Source of the DNA: Candidatus Peribacteria bacterium RIFOXYB1_FULL_54_35
Lineage (GTDB): Bacteria > Patescibacteriota > Gracilibacteria > Peribacterales > Peribacteraceae
Length of the DNA stretch: 64,000 nucleotides
Direction of reading: 5' to 3'
NCBI GenBank assembly: GCA_001787755.1
Contig: MFYJ01000007.1
Location: 210,585-274,584 of the forward strand
Shown piece by piece: positions 3,454 through 50,405 of this stretch (within the stretch, counting starts at the first letter, position 1; each line of letters begins with the position of its first letter). Both the position numbers and the translations under genes were made by a program. Below the pieces are notes generated by a model. The model made no database searches and was not told where the DNA came from. It saw nothing but the letters and a program-made list of their open reading frames with translations.

Positions 3454-3642
3454 CTAGGTGAGGGAGAGGAGGAGTGTAACGGCTTGGGAGAGGCCGAAGT
3501 CCACAGCGCCGAATACGGCTGTACTGGCTGCGACGAATCCCACCACGATTCCGGACAGCCGGACTGCCTGGTGGCGGGTCGGCCAGCGGACGTGATGCAG
3601 CTCCTGCAGTGCGTCAGTGATGTAGTTACGGATCTTATCCAT
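3454..3642 (-). CDS. secE: Preprotein translocase subunit SecE (start trimmed to MDKIRNYITDAL)
   Basis: Small single-TM protein, ELHHVRWPTRHQAVRLSGIVVG, immediately upstream of nusG. Confidence 0.9.
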   Translation of the reverse strand: MDKIRNYITDALQELHHVRWPTRHQAVRLSGIVVGFVAASTAVFGAVDFGLSQAVTLLLSLT

Positions 3643-3726
3643 GTGCTTCTCTAAAAAGCCTCTGGAAGAGGCAGGGAGTATCTTACTGGAGCGAGTGTGG
3701 GAGTGCAAGGAAAAGTGGCATTAAAT

Positions 3727-10500: not shown

Positions 10501-13500
10501 GGAGACACGGTGGTCCGGTTGTCCGTCTTCTCTATCGTGAGGAACGGAGGATCGGGCTGCTTGCGGTTCTTGAAGGTGATGGTGGAGCAGTTCGGGCCCG
10601 GCTGTACCTGCACGTAGCCGTTGGCGGGACTCTTTTCAAAGAGCAGCCATCCGAACGGAATGATTTCGGCAACGTTGTGCGATGCCACGGGGACATTCGT
10701 GAACCGTCCATGGCCGCTCCCATCCGTCATGAAGCTGTCCACGCCGCCGTCGAGCAGGAAAGTGAATTCCTGTGGAACGGGTGTCATGGGAGAGCCATCG
10801 ACGTTGAAGACTTCCTTCACCACATCGATGCATCCGTACTGGCTTCCGCCGTTCACGATGGTGGTATCGGTTGCGCTCGGACCTCCGACAATCTGGACGG
10901 TGTTCGTGAGCGTCGTGCCGCCCGGTGCGGCTGCGTTGATGGTCACCGTGAGGTGGAGCGTGAGTGTCTGGCCCGCCGGAATGGAGAGTCCTGTCCACTG
11001 TGCCACCCCACTGCTGTGTGTGCCGCCGTTGTCACTGCTCACGTACGTGACGTTTGCGGGCAGCGTATCTCTCACTGTCACACTGTTTGCGTCCGTGCTG
11101 GAGGTGTTTTCCACTGTGATGGTGTAGATGAGCGTCTCGCCTGCGTTTGCGCCTGTTCTCCCGTCGCTCTTACTGATTGCAAACGTGAGCTCACCGACAA
11201 CTGTCGTCTGGTCCAAAGCAGTGGGTCCGTTCACCACGGAAGCCGTGTTCGTGATCAGCGTTCCTTCCTGTGCTCCTGAATTCACAGAGACGGTGAGTGA
11301 GAGCACTTTCGTGTCTCCTGCGCCGATGCTGAGGTTATCCCAGGTCACTCTGGTTCCGTCGAATGTGCCGCTGTCTGATGCCGCGACGTACGTGACGTTC
11401 GAAGGCAGTGTGTCAATCACTTCCACGTTGGTTGCGTCCACGGCGGATGTGTTCGTCACACTGACTTGGTAGGTGATGGTCTCTCCCGGAGCCACGGTGG
11501 TCAGGTTGTCCGTCTTCTCGATGGTGAAGGTCACCGCAGGGCACTGGATGTGCGTGAGCACCTCATTACTCCAGTTCGGATCGGCATTGTCTGACCATAC
11601 GTCGGCGATGTTGCTGATGACGCCGCCGCAGGAAGCCGTCTGTTCAACCTGGAAGACGAGTGTCACCTGCCTCTGCTGTCCCTGTGTCAGATTTGCCGGG
11701 GAACAGAAGACAACCGGTGGGTTCGCTGTGCCGACGTAGGAGCAATCCTGGGAACTCTCCGCCGGGATGTATGTCAGATTCGGCGGCACTGTGTCGAAGA
11801 TGCTCGCATTCAGCACGGTGAATGAGCCGCTGTTCGTCACGGTGATGTCGTAGGTGATCTTCTCACCCCGGACCACGGAGGAAGAGCCCGTCTTCTCTAT
11901 GAGCACCTGGTCTGCCGGGCACTCTACGAAGGTCTGCACGGACAGGCTGGCGTTGTTTGCTGCGTTCGGGTCCTGCGTGGTGGAGGAGACAGTGGCTGTA
12001 TTCGTAATGAAGGATCCGCAGGCAACGCTCGAGCCGATATCGAAGGCGATGGTGACGGACTGCTGCATGCCGTCAGAGAGTGCCAGCTTCGTGCAGACAA
12101 TGTTGTTCCCGACCTGCTGGCAGCTGCTGTCCGACTGGCCGGCATTGAAGGTGAGTCCGGTGGGGATGGGGTCCGTGTAAGTTACGTCCGCAGCGCTCTC
12201 CGGCCCGTAGTTGAAGACCTGCAGCGTGTAGAGGAGAGTCTCTCCGCGTGGAATCCGGTCGCGGCCCATCTTGACGATGCCGAGGTCGGCTTCCAGCACC
12301 GGGCAGTACACTCTCGCCGTCACGGTGTTGCTGGTGTTGTTGGCCGGGTTCGGGTCGGTGGAGGAGCCGGAGACTGTCGCCTGGTTGCTGATGGAAGCAT
12401 CGCACCGTGCTTCTGCCGGGACGGTGAAGGAGACGGTCATGGTCTTGCTTTGGCCGCTTGTCAGGCTGAAGTTGTTGCAGAGGATGTTTCCTCCGTTCAC
12501 CACGCATCCCGGGTCTGAGGCTGCGGGATCGAACGTGAGTGGCACGGGCTGGCCGAGGGAATTCAGTACCGTGGGGATGGGGTCAGCCATCGTCACATTC
12601 GTTGCCGTACTCGGTCCGAGGTTCGTTGCCGTGAGGTCAAAGCTCACACGGTGGCCGGGTTCCACAATCGGCTGGCCGGTCTTGCTGATGGTGAGGTCCG
12701 CATCTGTCACCGGGCATTCCACGGTTGTCTGTACCTGCTGGCTCGCGTTGTCCAGCGGGTTTGGATCTGTGGAGGAAGCGGAGACAGTCGCCTGGTTGTT
12801 GATGATAGAGGAGCATTCGCCGGTGTCCGGGATGGTGAAGGAAATCAGCACCGTCCTGTCGTCGCCCGCATCCAGCGTGAAGTTGTCACAGAGGACGTTG
12901 GGTCCGTTCACGACGCACGCGGGGTCGGACTGTGCCGGGTTGAAGACCAGCGGGACCATCACTGCCAGTGTCTCATGCGGGATGCTGGGGATGGTGTCTG
13001 CGATCACCACGTTCGTTGCGGTATCCGGTCCGGCATTCGTTGCAGTCACGGTGTACGTGACGGTGCTGCCGCGCATGGCGGTTTGCGGGCCGGTCTTCGT
13101 GATGGAGAGATCTGCGGTCTGTGCCGGGCAGTTCACCGTAGTGGAGACAATCTGGCTGAGATTATTCTGCGGATTCGGATCACCCTGTGGCGTGCTCTGC
13201 ACGCGTGCCTGGTTGTGGACAGAGGAGCCGCAGGAAATGGCACTGCTCGTAGAGAAGGCGAGTGTGAGGTCCACGCTGTCTCCGCTCACGAGGTTGATGC
13301 CGCTGCAGACAACTTCTGCTCCGTTCACCTGGCATCCGGCGGAGCTGCCACCGGCATTGAAGGTGAGTCCGGCGGGGATAGGATCGGCGATCTCCACTCC
13401 TGTGGCGTCACCCGGTCCGCTGTTTGTGACTGTGAGTACGTAGGTGAGGAGATTCCCGCGGGTCACCGTGGCGGGGCCGGTCTTGCTGATGCCGATATCC

Positions 13501-43367: not shown

Positions 43368-44972
43368 ATGCCGAAGTCTCCGCCCCTCACCGATCTCACC
43401 ATTCTCTTTCCGGAGGAGGGGGAGTCGTGGGAGGCATTCGCTGCGCGTATAGAGGGGGAGAAGGGGAGCCTTGTTATCATCCTCACCGGACCGGATGCCG
43501 TGCTCGCGCGCGATGAGAAGATGCGCGTGCAGTTCCTCGATGCCATGCAGCGCATGAGCGCCAGGGTGCACCTGGCCACCCGCCAGCGCGTGCTCATGGC
43601 TGCGGCCCGCTCCAAGGGCATCCGCGTGATCGACAGTATCTCGGATTTAAAGCACCTCCTGCGGGGGAACCCCAAGGCAGACGAGGCGGTCCGCATGTTC
43701 TCGCCGAACATCTGGCAGCAGAAGCTGCGTAGCAATCTGCAGTCCATGGGGCTCCTCAGCCTCCCGAAGCTCCGTGTGTGGGTGCTCATTCTGACGAGTG
43801 TCGTTGTCTTCCTCTTCGTGCTCTTCCGCCTGCTCCCGAACTGCGAAATACGCGTCTGGCCGCGGGAGGACGCCATCTCGCAGACGGTGAATGTCTTCCT
43901 CGTGCTCTCGGGAGCGGTGATAGAGGGAATTCCCTCCCGCGTGCGGACCATGGAACTCATCCCCATCGAAGTGTCTGTGAGCCAGGCCGTCACGTTCGAC
44001 CAGATCTCCAAGGAGTTCATTGGCAAGAGTGCAGAGGCAGCCATGACGGTGATCAATACGTCCGACAGCGAGTATGCCCTGCGCACGGGAACGCGCGTCA
44101 TGAACCAGGCAGGCATGGTCTTCCGCCTCCAGGAACCGGTGGTGGTGGCTCCCGGGGAAGAAGTGACGGCGCGCGCGACCGCCGATGATCTGGATCTCTA
44201 TGGAGAAGTGATCGGAGACCGCGGCAATGTTCCTGCGGGCCTGCGCTGGGATTTCCCCGGCCTCGCGCCATCGGAGCAGCAGCTCGTGTACGCCGAGAAC
44301 CGCAGCCCTGCTTCGGGGGGGCAGACGGATTTCCGCACGGTGCTGCATAAGGAAGACCTGGAGGTTGGCCGCCTGAAGCTGGAGCAGGATTTGCTCGCTT
44401 CGGCCAAGCAGCTCGTGGACGAGCAGCGGGATCTCTTCAATGCGGAGCACGCGGAGGAGCACATGGAGATTCTGTACTACGAAGAACTCACAAAATCCAT
44501 CTTCTACAATTTCAAGCTTTCTGAGCAGTTCCTCGGCCAGCCGGTGAAATCCGTGCCGATGGAGGGCGATGTTGTCTACACCGCCTATGCCTACGATTCC
44601 CTGCACGTCCTCGCGCTCCTCAGCCAGGAACTGCGGCAGCACGTGGAGGACGGCAAGCGCCTTCTGGAGGAGACGCTCACCTTAGACCGCCTTGTCGCGC
44701 ATGTCATCGACTACGCCGATGACCTCGCGTGGATCAAGCTCACGGTGGACCTCTCCGGCACGGAGCAGTACATCCTCGACCCCTTAAGCCCCACGGGAGC
44801 CAGGTTCGGCAAGAAAGTGCGTGATCTCGTCACCGGGAAGGACAAGGACACCGCGCAGCGCATCATCAAGAACCTCCCGGAGGTGGAGAACGTGGAGGTG
44901 CACGTCTGGCCGCCCTGGAACCGCCTGGTCCCGCATATTCCTTCCAGTATTTCCATCGAAGTCATCCGATGA
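43368..44972 (+). CDS. Membrane-anchored protein with baseplate-J-like region
   Basis: One TM then VINTSDSEYALRTGTRVMNQAGMVFRLQEPVVVAPGEEVTARATADDLDLYGEVIGDRGNVPAG, baseplate-J-like pattern. Confidence 0.6.
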   Translation: MPKSPPLTDLTILFPEEGESWEAFAARIEGEKGSLVIILTGPDAVLARDEKMRVQFLDAMQRMSARVHLATRQRVLMAAARSKGIRVIDSISDLKHLLRGNPKADEAVRMFSPNIWQQKLRSNLQSMGLLSLPKLRVWVLILTSVVVFLFVLFRLLPNCEIRVWPREDAISQTVNVFLVLSGAVIEGIPSRVRTMELIPIEVSVSQAVTFDQISKEFIGKSAEAAMTVINTSDSEYALRTGTRVMNQAGMVFRLQEPVVVAPGEEVTARATADDLDLYGEVIGDRGNVPAGLRWDFPGLAPSEQQLVYAENRSPASGGQTDFRTVLHKEDLEVGRLKLEQDLLASAKQLVDEQRDLFNAEHAEEHMEILYYEELTKSIFYNFKLSEQFLGQPVKSVPMEGDVVYTAYAYDSLHVLALLSQELRQHVEDGKRLLEETLTLDRLVAHVIDYADDLAWIKLTVDLSGTEQYILDPLSPTGARFGKKVRDLVTGKDKDTAQRIIKNLPEVENVEVHVWPPWNRLVPHIPSSISIEVIR

Positions 44973-45640
44973 TTCCCGGGAAATCCCACATCCGCTGGCT
45001 CATCCGCTCGGTGCTGCGCCTCCTCGGCGTCAGTGGGGGAGTGTTCCTCCTCATCGTGCTCCACGTCGTCTCCCAGTTCCTGGGGGATGCTGACAGCGCC
45101 ACCCTTCGACAAGCTCAGGGCGGCACAATTTGTGCCGTCGTCTTCGGCGCCGCCGTGCGCGGAGGCTCGGAGGCGGGCCCCGGCATTACGCGCCGGGTGC
45201 AGGCTGCCGCCGACCTCTACCACCAGGGGAGTATCCAGACCATTATTCTCACCGGAGGTAAAGGGTCACAGATCCAGGAGAGCGAGGCTGCCGTCATGAA
45301 GAAAGTGGCCATGAGGCTCGGTATCGACTCAGAAGACCTGATTTTGGAGGATAAGGCCACCTCGACCTGGGAGAATCTGGCCTTCACCAAGGAGCTAGTC
45401 GGGGATTGCTCCTCTATTATTGCCATCTCCGACCGTTACCACCTCGCCCGCATCGAGTACCTCGCGGAGCTCCAGGAGTGGGGGAACCTTCGTACACTGC
45501 CGGCGGGCAGGGTACCGCTTCTGTCATTCGAAGTCCGCGCAGTCGTGCGCGAAGCACTCGGACACATCTACTACACGCTGCGTGAGTACTTCGACATAGA
45601 GAAGTACCTCTCCTCCCAGTCGGACTTCCAGGTCCTCTAG
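44969..45640 (+). CDS. YdcF/DUF218 family protein
   Basis: AVVFGAAVRGGSEAGPGITRRVQAAADLYHQGSIQTIILTGGKG..SEAAVMKKVAMRLGIDSEDLILEDKATSTWENLAFTKEL. Confidence 0.85.
   Translation: MIPGKSHIRWLIRSVLRLLGVSGGVFLLIVLHVVSQFLGDADSATLRQAQGGTICAVVFGAAVRGGSEAGPGITRRVQAAADLYHQGSIQTIILTGGKGSQIQESEAAVMKKVAMRLGIDSEDLILEDKATSTWENLAFTKELVGDCSSIIAISDRYHLARIEYLAELQEWGNLRTLPAGRVPLLSFEVRAVVREALGHIYYTLREYFDIEKYLSSQSDFQVL
45104..45124. repeat. Dispersed CTTCGACAAGCTCAGG repeat inside the YdcF-like CDS
   Basis: ccacccttcgacaagctcagg read in frame as ATLRQAQG. Confidence 0.7.
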
Positions 45641-45657: not shown

Positions 45658-45730
45658 GAGTTTTCCACATGTCAATTCCTTCTTAACATAAAATGCATTA
45701 TGTTAAGTATAGGAAGGATGTGGAAAACTC
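45658..45730. repeat. 73-bp palindrome with 13-bp outer arms and a nested dif-like core
   Basis: GAGTTTTCCACAT ... ATGTGGAAAACTC. Confidence 0.9.
45681..45708. other. dif: Putative dif/Xer recombination site
   Basis: TCTTAACATAA-AATGCA-TTATGTTAAGT: 11-6-11 layout and TTATGTTAA half-site like known dif sites; about 180 bp from xer. Confidence 0.7.
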
Positions 45731-45784
45731 CTCTTTTCTTTCTCCCCTGCCAAATTTCTTGTTCATTCAGCTTTTTAGAAAATA

Positions 45785-45872
45785 TGTCACACTGAGCACT
45801 GTCGAAGTGCGACATATTTTCTGCCCTCCTCTGTCATCCTTCGTCAGAGCTCAGGATGACAGGAATCCCCTC
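45785..45872. repeat. Two dispersed palindromes (GTCACACTGAGCACTGTCGAAGTGCGAC; GTCATCCTTCGTCAGAGCTCAGGATGAC)
   Basis: Self-complementary ends, related to CTTCGACAAGCTCAG repeats. Confidence 0.6.
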
Positions 45873-45890: not shown

Positions 45891-46814
45891 ATGGAAAACG
45901 CACTCTCACAGGCCATGGACCGCTACATCGTCTATCTCCAGGCGGAAGAGAACAAATCTCCGCTCACCGTGGCCAATTACCGGCGCTCTTTGAACCTCCT
46001 TTTAGACCTTTTAGGCGTCTCCGATGCCAAAAACATCGATAAAACTGTGATTCGGACCCTTAAATCCAAACTGCACGGCGCCAAGGCGCGCAGCGGCAAG
46101 CCCCTGAGCATTACCACCAAGAACTATCACCTCACCGTCCTGCGGGCTTTCCTCCGGTATTTGCTGCAGGATGAGGAAATGGACGGCATTTACGCGCCCG
46201 ACCGCATCCAGAGGTTCAAGCAGGAGGAGCGGCAGGTGAAAGTCCTCCGGCGCGAGGAGCTCTCCCGTCTCCTCGAGTCCCCTGACGTTTCCACCCGGAC
46301 CGGCAAGCGCGACAAAGCGATTATGGAATTATTTTTTTCGACGGGGTTACGTCTTGCAGAACTCCGGAGTCTGAATGTGCGGGATCTGAACTTTGACACA
46401 AGAGAGATTTCAGTTCGCGGTAAAAGGGGAAAGATCCGGGTGGTCTTCCTCTCGGATCGGGCGGTGGATTCCCTCCGGGCATACCTGGAGGCGCGGACAG
46501 ATGATCTCACTCCCCTCTTCATTCGTAATATGGAGAAAGCGCAGGAGACTATGCCCCCCGGAGAAGAATTCAGACTTTCGCGCATCTCTATCTATAACGT
46601 AGTGAAGAAATACGCGCTCATTGCGGGAGTGGTCTCTGATCCTTCTCCGCACACGCTGCGGCATTCCTTCGCGACGGATCTTCTGAGGAATGGAGCGGAT
46701 TTAAGGAGTGTGCAGGAGTTACTGGGGCATGCGGATTTGAGTACGACGCAGATTTACACGCATGTGACTAACCCCCAATTGAAGGAAGTTCATGAGAAAT
46801 ATCACGGGAAGTAA
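45891..46814 (+). CDS. xer: Xer-type tyrosine recombinase (start trimmed to MENALSQAM)
   Basis: FFSTGLRLAELRSLNVRD..SPHTLRHSFATDLLRNGADLRSVQELLGHADLSTTQIYTHV, R..HxxR..H..Y. Confidence 0.95.
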   Translation: MENALSQAMDRYIVYLQAEENKSPLTVANYRRSLNLLLDLLGVSDAKNIDKTVIRTLKSKLHGAKARSGKPLSITTKNYHLTVLRAFLRYLLQDEEMDGIYAPDRIQRFKQEERQVKVLRREELSRLLESPDVSTRTGKRDKAIMELFFSTGLRLAELRSLNVRDLNFDTREISVRGKRGKIRVVFLSDRAVDSLRAYLEARTDDLTPLFIRNMEKAQETMPPGEEFRLSRISIYNVVKKYALIAGVVSDPSPHTLRHSFATDLLRNGADLRSVQELLGHADLSTTQIYTHVTNPQLKEVHEKYHGK

Positions 46815-46905
46815 AATATTCCCTTTGCTTTTGATGCGAGAAATACTCGTTCGGAGGCTTACAAAATCAATTGCAGAGAATGGCTATTGATTGCAGGTTT
46901 GAAAG

Positions 46906-46935
46906 TTGACATATGTAAACATTGGGATTCATACT
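46906..46935 (+). promoter_or_regulatory. Sigma70-type promoter
   Basis: TTGACA-N18-CATACT, -10 ends 6 nt before ATG 46942. Confidence 0.6.
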
Positions 46936-46941
46936 TTCTTT

Positions 46942-47649
46942 ATGCAGGAATTGGTTAATTTATTTGGGCTTTTGCTTCCTCCGAATGAAATAAGGCCAAT
47001 TTTTTCAGAGATAAAATATGGGATGACTGATAAATTGCTCCGTAAGTTTTTTAGTGGCTGGAAGGAGGGGGCTGATCAAACTGCCTTGATTAATAGAAAA
47101 ATGAGTACAACTTTAGCATTGGATAAGGGAGGTTTCACTTTTGTATTAGAAGATCCTAAGTATTTAAAGGATTTTTTAAAGCAATCAGAGCAAATATATA
47201 CTCTTTATACTCAGATGCTTGAAACACAGCTTATTAGGAAGATAGGGTTTGAAAGGATTGGAGTTGTTGGATTGGATGTGTCTTTTGAAGATGCGGTCTG
47301 CAAACTTAGAGAAAAGTTTTTTCTGAAAAAACCCGAGGTAACGTTTCTTTCGAGTAAGTTTAGCGATTTCCTTTTTTCTGTGAATCTCATTAAGAATGAT
47401 TTTTTGTGTGAATATAACGCAGGTGTGGCGAGAAGGGGGGAAGTTTGTTCAATGTTGGAAGATCGTACAGAATTTTTGCGTGCTGAGGATTTACCCGAGA
47501 CTAGTTTGTTTTTCGACTTAAATGTAAGCAAGAAAAATTCGACGTCAGAAATGGGGAGAAAGATTTTAAAAGATGCTGAGTCGTTAAGTAAAAACTTGTT
47601 TAATGAATTTTTTGAATTTTCCTTAACAGATGTCAACAAAGACAAGTAG
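46942..47649 (+). CDS. Hypothetical AT-rich accessory protein (possibly TIGR04255-like)
   Basis: Start trimmed to MQELVNLFGLLLPP; C-term SLFFDLNVSKKN..LFNEFFEFSLTD resembles TIGR04255 tails; tentative. Confidence 0.5.
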   Translation: MQELVNLFGLLLPPNEIRPIFSEIKYGMTDKLLRKFFSGWKEGADQTALINRKMSTTLALDKGGFTFVLEDPKYLKDFLKQSEQIYTLYTQMLETQLIRKIGFERIGVVGLDVSFEDAVCKLREKFFLKKPEVTFLSSKFSDFLFSVNLIKNDFLCEYNAGVARRGEVCSMLEDRTEFLRAEDLPETSLFFDLNVSKKNSTSEMGRKILKDAESLSKNLFNEFFEFSLTDVNKDK

Positions 47650-48379
47650 TTACGATTCGGCATTTACTGATTTTTCCGACGAGGCATTGTCTGCTTTGGG
47701 AGGGTTAGGAGATATTAATGACAGATTCAGGAAGAAGAGTATGTGGGTTTCGAGAGAAAGATTGCCGGTGGGTGATTTTTCGGGCACAAATGGTTGTGTT
47801 CCATTTGATACAGTGAATGCATTAATAGGAGAGAAACTTCCAAGAAGGGACAAAATGATTCAAGTTCATCAAGATCGTGGGTATCCGAAAGTTATGTATA
47901 TGTCTTTTGCGACAGATGCTAACGATGTTATCCACAAATTTGATTTCGCTTTATCGCGGAGTGAAATGTTAAGTTCAGTATTAGCTTTTTTTCTTCTTCC
48001 TCTTACTAGTCTAGATATAACTTTTGTCCTTTTTGGATGCTCTCTGGTTTTTTATTCCCTTATTAAGGGATCAATAGCTGTCAAATCAGATACGCCTTTC
48101 AAGTTTTTAGTTTCACTCGCAAAAAATATTGCCATATGCATTGCGATATTGTATGGCTCCGGTTTTATGGAGTTATACTTTATCAGTATTGGTCATGGTG
48201 TATATGGGGGAGGTGTAGTTAGGGAAATAGTATTGTATGCGGTAACTGCTTATTTGCTTAGTGTTGTTGCAATTAATCTTTTTGTATGGTTCTGTCATTT
48301 GGTTACTGAAGATAAATTTTACACAGCTGTGAAGGATATTATTGCTTATGCAAAAAAGAGATTTTGTGAAAAAGAATAA
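47630..48379 (+). CDS. Hypothetical protein with C-terminal TM segments
   Basis: Start overlaps the upstream stop by 20 nt; soluble N-term followed by about four hydrophobic segments. Confidence 0.6.
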   Translation: MSTKTSSYDSAFTDFSDEALSALGGLGDINDRFRKKSMWVSRERLPVGDFSGTNGCVPFDTVNALIGEKLPRRDKMIQVHQDRGYPKVMYMSFATDANDVIHKFDFALSRSEMLSSVLAFFLLPLTSLDITFVLFGCSLVFYSLIKGSIAVKSDTPFKFLVSLAKNIAICIAILYGSGFMELYFISIGHGVYGGGVVREIVLYAVTAYLLSVVAINLFVWFCHLVTEDKFYTAVKDIIAYAKKRFCEKE

Positions 48380-48427
48380 TTTATTCATCTGGAGCCGAAC
48401 TCTCCCCTTGCGTAAAGCTCGCAGAAT

Positions 48428-48667
48428 CTATTTCTTATAGAGTCTTTCGATTTCTCTTGCCAAAAAGACAATAAGATAAGTCCAACCTAAAATTACGACG
48501 ATGCTGTATATGTTATACCAAGTTGGGCCTAGAGTTTTGGCATTCTCATGAACAATAGTTACAACTTCCATTGTTAGGGCAGCTACGATAAAGCCAGTAA
48601 CAACAAGGAGGTGTTCGAATGCGCTAAGTTTCAATCTTGGTGCCTTACGTCTTTTCCTGAACCACAT
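48428..48667 (-). CDS. Small hypothetical membrane protein
   Basis: MWFRKRRKAPRLKLSAFEHLLVVTGFIVAALTMEVV..IYSIVVILGWTYLIVFLAREIERLYKK. Confidence 0.5.
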   Translation of the reverse strand: MWFRKRRKAPRLKLSAFEHLLVVTGFIVAALTMEVVTIVHENAKTLGPTWYNIYSIVVILGWTYLIVFLAREIERLYKK

Positions 48668-48772
48668 GAAGCAATCTTACCACACATATGCAAAGGGAGA
48701 TATTGATGTGGAGATTGTGGTGGGGAGGAAGGGGTAGACAATCTAATCCAGTGAGAGCTACCATTCCTTTTA

Positions 48773-49720
48773 ATGGTGAATAGGGTTTTATTGTTATTGG
48801 TAGTATTAATGCTTGCTGGGTGCAACGCAGTGGATCTTTCTTGCATTGAAGGGTTCGAGAAAAATGAGAGATCAGAGGGGGTAATATTTTTTCTCTGTGA
48901 GAATCCTGAGTTTGAAATTACCTGTGATGTCAAAACATATGTGTACGTGGACGGTAGGCACTCGTGTATTTCCTTTAATGGCGACAAATACTTAATTTTA
49001 GAAACCGAAGATGTTACGAATCAGCCGGAAGAGCAAATGAGCTCTGTTTCAAGTGCGGAAGAAGAAAGGGAAGTTCGAGTGCAAGCAACTCCTATAGTCC
49101 AACCGGAGAAAGCGGTAGAATCTGCTTCAGAGATCGAAAAGATCGGAGAAATAGTATGCAAAGATGGTGATTGGAATTGTGAATCTTGGGGGTCCTGTAC
49201 TGCAGGCACTCAGTCTAGGGAGTGCGTTTTAAGTTCTGATTGTATTGTTAAAGATTTTTCTCCTGAAATTGTGAGAACATGCACGGTGACAAGAGTGTGC
49301 GGTGGGTCTGATTGGGATTGTTCAGGATGGACCCACTGCATAAATGGTAAACGTACGCGAGTTTGCGATTTACAGTCAAAGGATTGCCGAATTGTTTCCC
49401 CAGTTAGTACAGAGGAGGCCTGCTCAAATCTTGAATCTCGCCTTTTAGAAATGTCTACTGACATCGATGCAAGGGAGGTCTGGCTGAATAAATGGGATGG
49501 GGTTGCAAAGGAGCTTGCTTCTAATTCTGCGAATGAAATATATTCCATAACCAATAAGTATCGAAAAGACCTTATGGAGTATATGGGTATTTATAATGAT
49601 CTTGTTTCTGGTAAGGCTACTGTTGCGCTTGTCGGGTACCGTATTTCGAACCTTATGCTTGAGATGGATAGTCTGCAGGAGAGCATAAAAAAAATTACGT
49701 TAGTGTATCCTGCTAAATGA
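48773..49720 (+). CDS. Lipoprotein with thrombospondin-type-1-like W/C motifs
   Basis: LMLAGCNAVDLS lipobox; DWNCESWGSCTAGTQSRECV and DWDCSGWTHCINGKRTRVCD. Confidence 0.65.
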   Translation: MVNRVLLLLVVLMLAGCNAVDLSCIEGFEKNERSEGVIFFLCENPEFEITCDVKTYVYVDGRHSCISFNGDKYLILETEDVTNQPEEQMSSVSSAEEEREVRVQATPIVQPEKAVESASEIEKIGEIVCKDGDWNCESWGSCTAGTQSRECVLSSDCIVKDFSPEIVRTCTVTRVCGGSDWDCSGWTHCINGKRTRVCDLQSKDCRIVSPVSTEEACSNLESRLLEMSTDIDAREVWLNKWDGVAKELASNSANEIYSITNKYRKDLMEYMGIYNDLVSGKATVALVGYRISNLMLEMDSLQESIKKITLVYPAK

Positions 49721-49724
49721 TATT

Positions 49725-49795
49725 GGTTCTTCGGGCGGGAGAATCCTAAGAAGGATCTCGCAATTCTCTGCAAGAGGCATCATCCGAAGGGCTGG
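49725..49795 (+). pseudogene. Truncated 3' fragment of an HNH endonuclease gene
   Basis: Encodes FGRENPKKDLAILCKRHHPKG, matching FGRENPKKDLAILCEKHHPKG of 49991-50356. Confidence 0.75.
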
Positions 49796-49864
49796 TGCTC
49801 CCTGCTGGGGATTCGTGTTTGAAGGCTTTTCTACAAACTATTTCATTTTTGAAGAGTAGATTGC

Positions 49865-49930
49865 CTAGTTCTGCCGCCTTCCGCAGCAGTTTTTGTATTT
49901 TTGCCGCTATTGTAGAAGGGGCAGAGATGT
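49865..49930 (-). pseudogene. Degenerate SEC-C motif gene-end fragment
   Basis: Minus strand TGCCCCTTCTACAATAGCGGCAAAAATACAAAAACTGCTGCGGAAGGCGGCAGAACTAG aligns to the SEC-C tail coding sequence at 51108-51170. Confidence 0.6.
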
Positions 49931-49990
49931 CCATGGGCTGGATGGAGATAACGACGGGGAGGCGTGTGAGTCGTTGGAGTGAGCGCTATC

Positions 49991-50356
49991 ATGTCTGCTA
50001 TGGATAAGAGCTTCATCCCCATTCTTCTTGTCTTCTTTGTACTTTATGGGCTTCAGGAGCTTTTGCGAACTCGTGTCTCTAAGAAGGATATGTGGGAGCA
50101 CTACCGCTCTCCTCTCTGGGAACAGAAGAGAGAAGAAGCGTTTCGGATACATGGCAGAAAGTGTGCCGTGTGTGATACAGAGGAGCACCTGCAGGTGCAT
50201 CATCTGCACTACCGCAAATGGTTTGTTCCTATTTTTGGGCGGGAGAATCCTAAAAAAGATCTGGCAATTTTGTGCGAGAAGCACCATCCGAAAGGGCGAT
50301 ACTCAAGGGTGGAAATTCTCGTTCGCAGGCTATTCTATAAGCTCTTTCGTGTTTGA
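49991..50356 (+). CDS. HNH endonuclease domain protein with N-terminal TM
   Basis: HGRKCAVCDTEEHLQVHHLHYRKWF..NPKKDLAILCEKHH. Confidence 0.85.
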   Translation: MSAMDKSFIPILLVFFVLYGLQELLRTRVSKKDMWEHYRSPLWEQKREEAFRIHGRKCAVCDTEEHLQVHHLHYRKWFVPIFGRENPKKDLAILCEKHHPKGRYSRVEILVRRLFYKLFRV

Positions 50357-50373
50357 GCGGGAAAAGAAACTTC

Positions 50374-50405
50374 TCTAGTTCTGCCGCCTCTCGCAGCAGT
50401 GTTTG
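50374..50405 (-). pseudogene. Short SEC-C gene-end fragment
   Basis: Minus strand AAACACTGCTGCGAGAGGCGGCAGAACTAG = KHCCERRQN*, compare KNCCGRPQN* of the intact gene. Confidence 0.55.

Follow-up and report, generated by a model that had tools for sequence, protein, structure and literature searches.

Linkage between a dif site and the gene for its recombinase, combined with reliance on a lone recombinase, is common to the XerS/difSL, XerH/difH and some archaeal XerA/dif systems (PMC5357621, PMC2958812). With regard to how such enzymes read their targets, a contact between residue Q221 of E. coli XerD and dif position 24 has been predicted, and XerD specificity is governed by positions 23-24 (PMC2731167), whereas in XerH a helix (aa 285-299) enters the outer arm by its major groove (PMC5241119). 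Among the Peribacteria, the authors of the complete Candidatus Peribacter riflensis genomes set origin and terminus by GC skew, with dif and Xer unmentioned (PMC4736985), and a literature search brought up no report of a dif site from Peregrinibacteria or from CPR bacteria at large. The locus considered here lies in a stretch of 64,000 nucleotides (the window) from a Candidatus Peribacteria genome, and contains a 28-bp palindrome that is very probably the chromosomal dimer-resolution site (dif) of this Peribacteria species, bound as two near-identical half-sites by one XerD-like recombinase encoded adjacent to it. This assignment follows from the position of the site at the skew maximum marking the terminus in relatives, from a switch in the polarity of the motif AGGGGA together with an FtsK gamma domain, and from a match between half-site sequence and Xer residues.

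Inverted half-sites in an 11-6-11 arrangement of about 28 bp, a single copy per chromosome, an intergenic position and a low GC content are features of a dif site, and each is found at this locus. Specifically, the 28-mer TCTTAACATAA-AATGCA-TTATGTTAAGT (45681-45708, + strand) has exactly the letters first quoted, and consists of a left half-site (45681-45691), an asymmetric central spacer of 6 bp (45692-45697) and a right half-site (45698-45708), with each half-site predicted to bind one of two Xer subunits. The layout and the near-perfect inversion of the half-sites were correctly anticipated, as 10 of the 11 positions of the 11-nucleotide arms are complementary. When the pattern TTAACATAA-N6-TTATGTTAA was searched with up to 3 mismatches, one match was found in the 64-kb window (0 in 100 dinucleotide shuffles; 0.00 expected) and one across the whole 1.56-Mb assembly, and the 28-mer is thus unique. 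Its GC content is 21% (6/28), compared with about 55-60% in the surroundings, and the palindrome region folds into a strong hairpin (z = -6.2). The site is flanked by a DUF218 gene (44969-45640) on one side and xer (45891-46814) on the other; the claim that it lies immediately upstream of xer holds as to its upstream, intergenic position, the distance to the conserved xer start (45891) being 182 bp. An open reading frame runs from an ATG within the dif site (45693), an extension that is not common to relatives. Between dif and xer, a second inverted repeat is observed at 45777-45822 (17-nt arms, 94%; AGAAAATATGTCACACT / AGTGCGACATATTTTCT), and across the dif site no sigma-70 promoter was found on the strand of xer.

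The gene xer (45891-46814, + strand) encodes a XerD-like tyrosine recombinase of 307 aa. Profile searches of the genome found no other Phage_integrase protein, and the product of xer carries the usual catalytic residues in the segments GLRLAELR (from residue 152), VRGKRGKIR (from 175), HTLRHSF (from 254) and LLGHADLSTTQIYTH (from 277). Its nearest named homologues come from Candidatus Peregrinibacteria genomes. Of the NCBIfam models, XerD (TIGR02225) gives the best match at 238 bits, which is below its cut-off of 329.6 and thus short of the XerD equivalog; the scores for XerA (209.4 bits, cut-off 220), XerS (112 bits, cut-off 267) and XerC are likewise under their own cut-offs. The nearest solved structure is XerD (E = 1e-37), followed by XerA, with XerH far removed (E = 2e-17). 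Since XerD is nearest in both models and structures, and a single Phage_integrase protein is present, the recombinase is taken to be a XerD-like Xer, apparently acting without a partner. Identity with XerH was rejected on the grounds of length (354-362 aa for XerH) and the closer match to XerD, and identity with XerS on the grounds of its model score and of the 28-bp site, as compared with the 31-bp difSL. The original prediction of a one-Xer system like XerH/difH therefore stands as to the single recombinase and the linkage of site and gene, but not as to the protein, which is XerD/XerA-like rather than XerH or XerS. The assembly of the window's genome (1.56 Mb) consists of 16 contigs at 97.85% completeness, and may therefore lack a second xer; bearing on such a missing copy is the finding that two single-contig relatives, G030 and G032, likewise have one Phage_integrase protein, and one xer, each.

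Of 57 genomes from the Peribacteria family, 38 contain the 14-bp core ATAAAATGCATTAT without mismatch, nearly always in one copy, and in 39 genomes of the family an 11-6-11 palindrome that shares this inner core lies upstream of the orthologous xer, as was to be expected of relatives if the pairing of palindrome and gene was real. Among these 39, hardly any variation is seen in the inner bases or in the spacer AATGCA, the 6-bp spacer and 11-bp arms are fixed, and the distance from site to xer start ranges from about 2 to 220 bp. In one relative (G033) the spacer runs the opposite way with respect to xer (TGCATT), and the core occurs a second time, again without mismatch, on another contig (C2:32774-32787, C9:14495-14508). 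Some family members are without this xer and site. Eight family members (G006, G021, G023, G027, G028, G066, G071 and G074) have a Xer of a separate lineage, with about 44% identity to that of the window; a palindrome was looked for beside this other xer in these eight and none was found, and the xer-dif unit has apparently been replaced in them. Outside of the family but within the class, the core pattern occurs at about the frequency of a control pattern, and inspection of 9 such matches found neither palindromic arms nor an adjacent xer in any. A WWE3 contig (L007) carries a dif-like sequence, TCCTAACATACCTATTATTACGTTAAGT, at 3631-3658, about 2.4 kb downstream of its xer.

The position of the palindrome between the DUF218 gene and xer, its strong hairpin, and the DnaA-box-like and GTCAATTG flanks found between palindrome and genes could also be accounted for if the palindrome were an operator or attenuator of xer, or the end of the DUF218 transcript, with only an incidental likeness to dif. 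Such an element is very improbable given the variable distance to xer, the spacer and arm lengths fixed in 39 genomes, the covariation of the arms with a helix of the recombinase, and the exact coincidence of the site with the replication terminus and the AGGGGA polarity switch. A regulatory role of the palindrome may nevertheless exist on top of its function as dif.

Right past the xer stop begins a low-GC block (46830-50400; GC 0.35-0.46) composed of genes without Pfam matches, the ends of which may be marked by a weak 20-bp near-repeat (46840 and 50312, E = 0.05), and which is possibly an inserted element. In a relative of the same genus, a small contig (L024) contains three copies of the xer 3' end (87-376, 1209-1334 and 1371-1420) around a RelB/YafQ-type toxin-antitoxin pair, an arrangement that points to more than one insertion or duplication event at this end of the gene. 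The block and these copies speak for the view that palindrome and xer belong to a mobile element, as its attachment site and its integrase, but orthologous xer and site are found at the terminus throughout the family, the palindrome is without a match in phage records, and the island adjoins xer on a single side and leaves out the site; we consider this view exceedingly improbable. The dif assignment is preferred, and draws further weight from comparison of the enzymes with their sites.

The best evidence that Xer may act on the 28-mer, and indirect support for binding and recombination, is provided by covariation between half-site and recombinase in 38 full-length Xer orthologues, whose sites fall into three symmetric half-site types (A, B and C). 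In all 38 proteins the half-site type can be told from residues 231 and 232: type A is accompanied by R231 and I/V232 (n=26), type B, with arms CAAGATAA, by a residue other than R followed by N (n=10), and type C by P and R (n=2). Residue 236 tracks type in most, being N in A and C and K/R in B. In the window, the codons for residues 231-236 (R231, I232, N236), the predicted half-site-reading helix, occupy 46581-46598 (+ strand). On the Xer tree, 6 changes of half-site type are counted (8 with the helix columns left out), and three genera each include type A and type B species that differ in both site and residues, the proteins of these pairs being 84, 74 and 67% identical. When confined to well-supported branches, the comparison retains three independent pairs, all of them concordant and too few for significance (p = 0.25). 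Residues 231-232 align with R220-Q221 of E. coli XerD, such that 232 corresponds to the Q221 discussed above, in an alignment whose XerD numbering we take to be anchored on the catalytic His244. The half-site types differ at positions 22 and 25 (A/B) or 22-24 (A/C), and the XerH helix of aa 285-299 is taken as the equivalent of the Xer 231-236 helix.

The replication terminus was located by means of GC skew in G030 (1,248,026 bp) and G032 (1,239,242 bp), each read in 60 stretches and fitted with two arcs in 2.5-kb bins. The best skew break lies at 490,901 in G030, where the core occupies 490,425-490,438, and at 709,737 in G032, where the core occupies 709,966-709,979; both breaks are thus less than 2.5 kb from the core, with that of G032 being less certain because GC skew is weak on one of its arms. 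Cumulative skew falls past the site in both genomes, meaning that the site coincides with the skew maximum and hence with the terminus, and the switch lies at the site in these complete relatives rather than elsewhere. The terminus of the window's own genome is placed via the polarized motif only. Within the 64-kb window, GC skew, which is uninformative by itself, shows no visible sign change at the predicted 45.69 kb, one reason for which is the AT-rich island directly after xer. The broader proposal of a dif at the replication terminus holds, by the skew maximum at the core in G030 and G032 and by the AGGGGA switch in the window's genome.

The 28-mer is embedded in a 73-bp interrupted palindrome (45658-45730), revealed by inverted-repeat and folding analysis and comprising dif and both outer arms. 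These arms, GAGTTTTCCACAT (45658-45670) and ATGTGGAAAACTC (45718-45730), are complementary at 13 of 13 positions and contain an inverted pair of DnaA-box-like 9-mers of sequence TTTTCCACA. On the left, the outer arm with its box (45662-45670, + strand; 9-mer 45661-45669) is kept in only 7 of 39 relatives, the 9-mer being TTATCCACA in some relatives, and on the right, the 9-mer (45719-45727, - strand) reads TGTGGAAAA on the + strand, and 21 of 39 genomes have a counterpart, TGTGGA(A/T)AA, 8-10 bp past the 28-mer. The 73-bp palindrome described at the outset is therefore present, but with its left arm so rarely kept it is not conserved as a whole. The alternation of TTTTCCACA and TTATCCACA agrees with what we take to be the DnaA-box consensus. 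A further conserved flank, GTCAATT (45671-45677, + strand), appears in the alignment of 39 relatives as GTCAATTG, which is observed 10-11 bp ahead of the 28-mer in 20 of them.

The window's genome contains 24 9-mers of the TTTTCCACA/TTATCCACA type, 2 of which flank dif, and no DnaA-like box was found at the dif site of G032. In G030 and G032 the same 9-mers cluster at the presumed origins, near the opposite skew break (1,075,678-1,076,740 in G030 and 10,506-10,781 in G032). An inverted pair of such boxes around an AT-rich core, with dnaA only 75-126 kb away, is what might be sought in a replication origin, yet that the region is an origin and not the terminus has a practically negligible probability, as it is already contradicted by the maximum of cumulative GC skew at the site, by the minimum near other DnaA-box clusters in G030 and G032, and by the G032 site with no box. 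The distance from dnaA to dif was observed in five genomes (G000, the window's genome, C7:175846; G030 C1:616815; G032 C1:807855; G031 C3:433392; G013 C8:280125), and in G030 and G032 dnaA is far from the presumed origin. It is unlikely, though conceivable, that the pair flanking dif is functional, in that DnaA binds there and links the replication cycle to either the expression of xer or the assembly of the dif complex; if so, the terminus would be a third place of action for one initiator, besides the origin and dnaA itself.

Polarized motifs also converge on the site. AGGGGA is the top strand-biased hexamer of 4032 in both G030 (598:217) and G032 (437:110), with a bias far above that of other hexamers of equal composition, and its density and polarity increase toward the site: in G032 density rises from 0.22 to 0.53 per kb, and within 50 kb of the site 53 leading copies are found against 2 lagging. 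In the window's genome, AGGGGAKT on contig C7 is oriented forward before the site (19:2) and reverse after it (15:1; Fisher p = 2e-7), and its switch falls in a 632-bp gap between 255,816 and 256,448, within which lies the 28-mer (256,265-256,292). Similarly, AGGGGA in the window is forward 31:4 before and reverse 21:6 after, with the best split between 45,225 and 45,743; the last forward copy (45225-45230) and the first reverse-strand copy past dif (45743-45748, - strand) bracket the switch. The FtsK proteins of the window's genome and of G030 possess alpha, motor and gamma domains. AGGGGA thus fits a KOPS-like guide, and would presumably act on FtsK by binding its gamma domain.

A dimer-resolution pathway consistent with these data can be proposed. 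FtsK would carry the chromosome terminus to the division septum, reading AGGGGA-type polarized motifs that converge on dif from both arms, and its gamma domain would activate a Xer homotetramer bound to, and able to cleave, both of the dif sites that a dimeric chromosome carries. Exchange of strands over the asymmetric AATGCA spacer, which would set direction, would then convert the dimer to two monomers; near-perfect arm symmetry suits the action of one enzyme on both halves. The dif site offers an exact terminus marker for uncultured genomes, and the family offers a natural series in which recombinase and symmetric target change together, with three switches inside single genera. The evolution of tyrosine recombinase specificity is thereby testable with defined enzyme-site pairs, which are also candidate orthogonal Xer/dif pairs.

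Compared with known systems, the Peribacteria locus resembles XerCD/dif of E. coli and other Proteobacteria (PMC2731167) in its 28-bp 11-6-11 site with a TTATGTTAA right half, intergenic and low in GC, as well as in the GC-skew maximum, the convergence of polarized motifs, the FtsK gamma domain and a recombinase closest to XerD; it differs in having one recombinase rather than two, arms that are near-perfect inverted copies, and a site beside the gene. With XerH/difH of Helicobacter and Campylobacter (PMC5357621, PMC5241119) it shares a lone recombinase and a site near the gene, but XerH is longer (354-362 aa versus 307) and only distantly similar (2e-17 versus 1e-37 for XerD), and the difH sequence differs. 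XerS/difSL of streptococci and lactococci also links a lone recombinase to its site, but XerS has 356 aa and an atypical 31-bp site, and the Peribacteria Xer scores 112 bits against the XerS cut-off of 267. Archaeal XerA/dif (PMC2958812) is alike in its lone recombinase of about 307 aa and in polarized motifs converging on dif, and the dif of Sulfolobales, close to xerA, likewise has a short conserved flank (PMC2958812); archaea, in contrast, are without FtsK, whereas Peribacteria have an FtsK with gamma domain and a Xer that, at 209 bits, falls below the XerA cut-off of 220.
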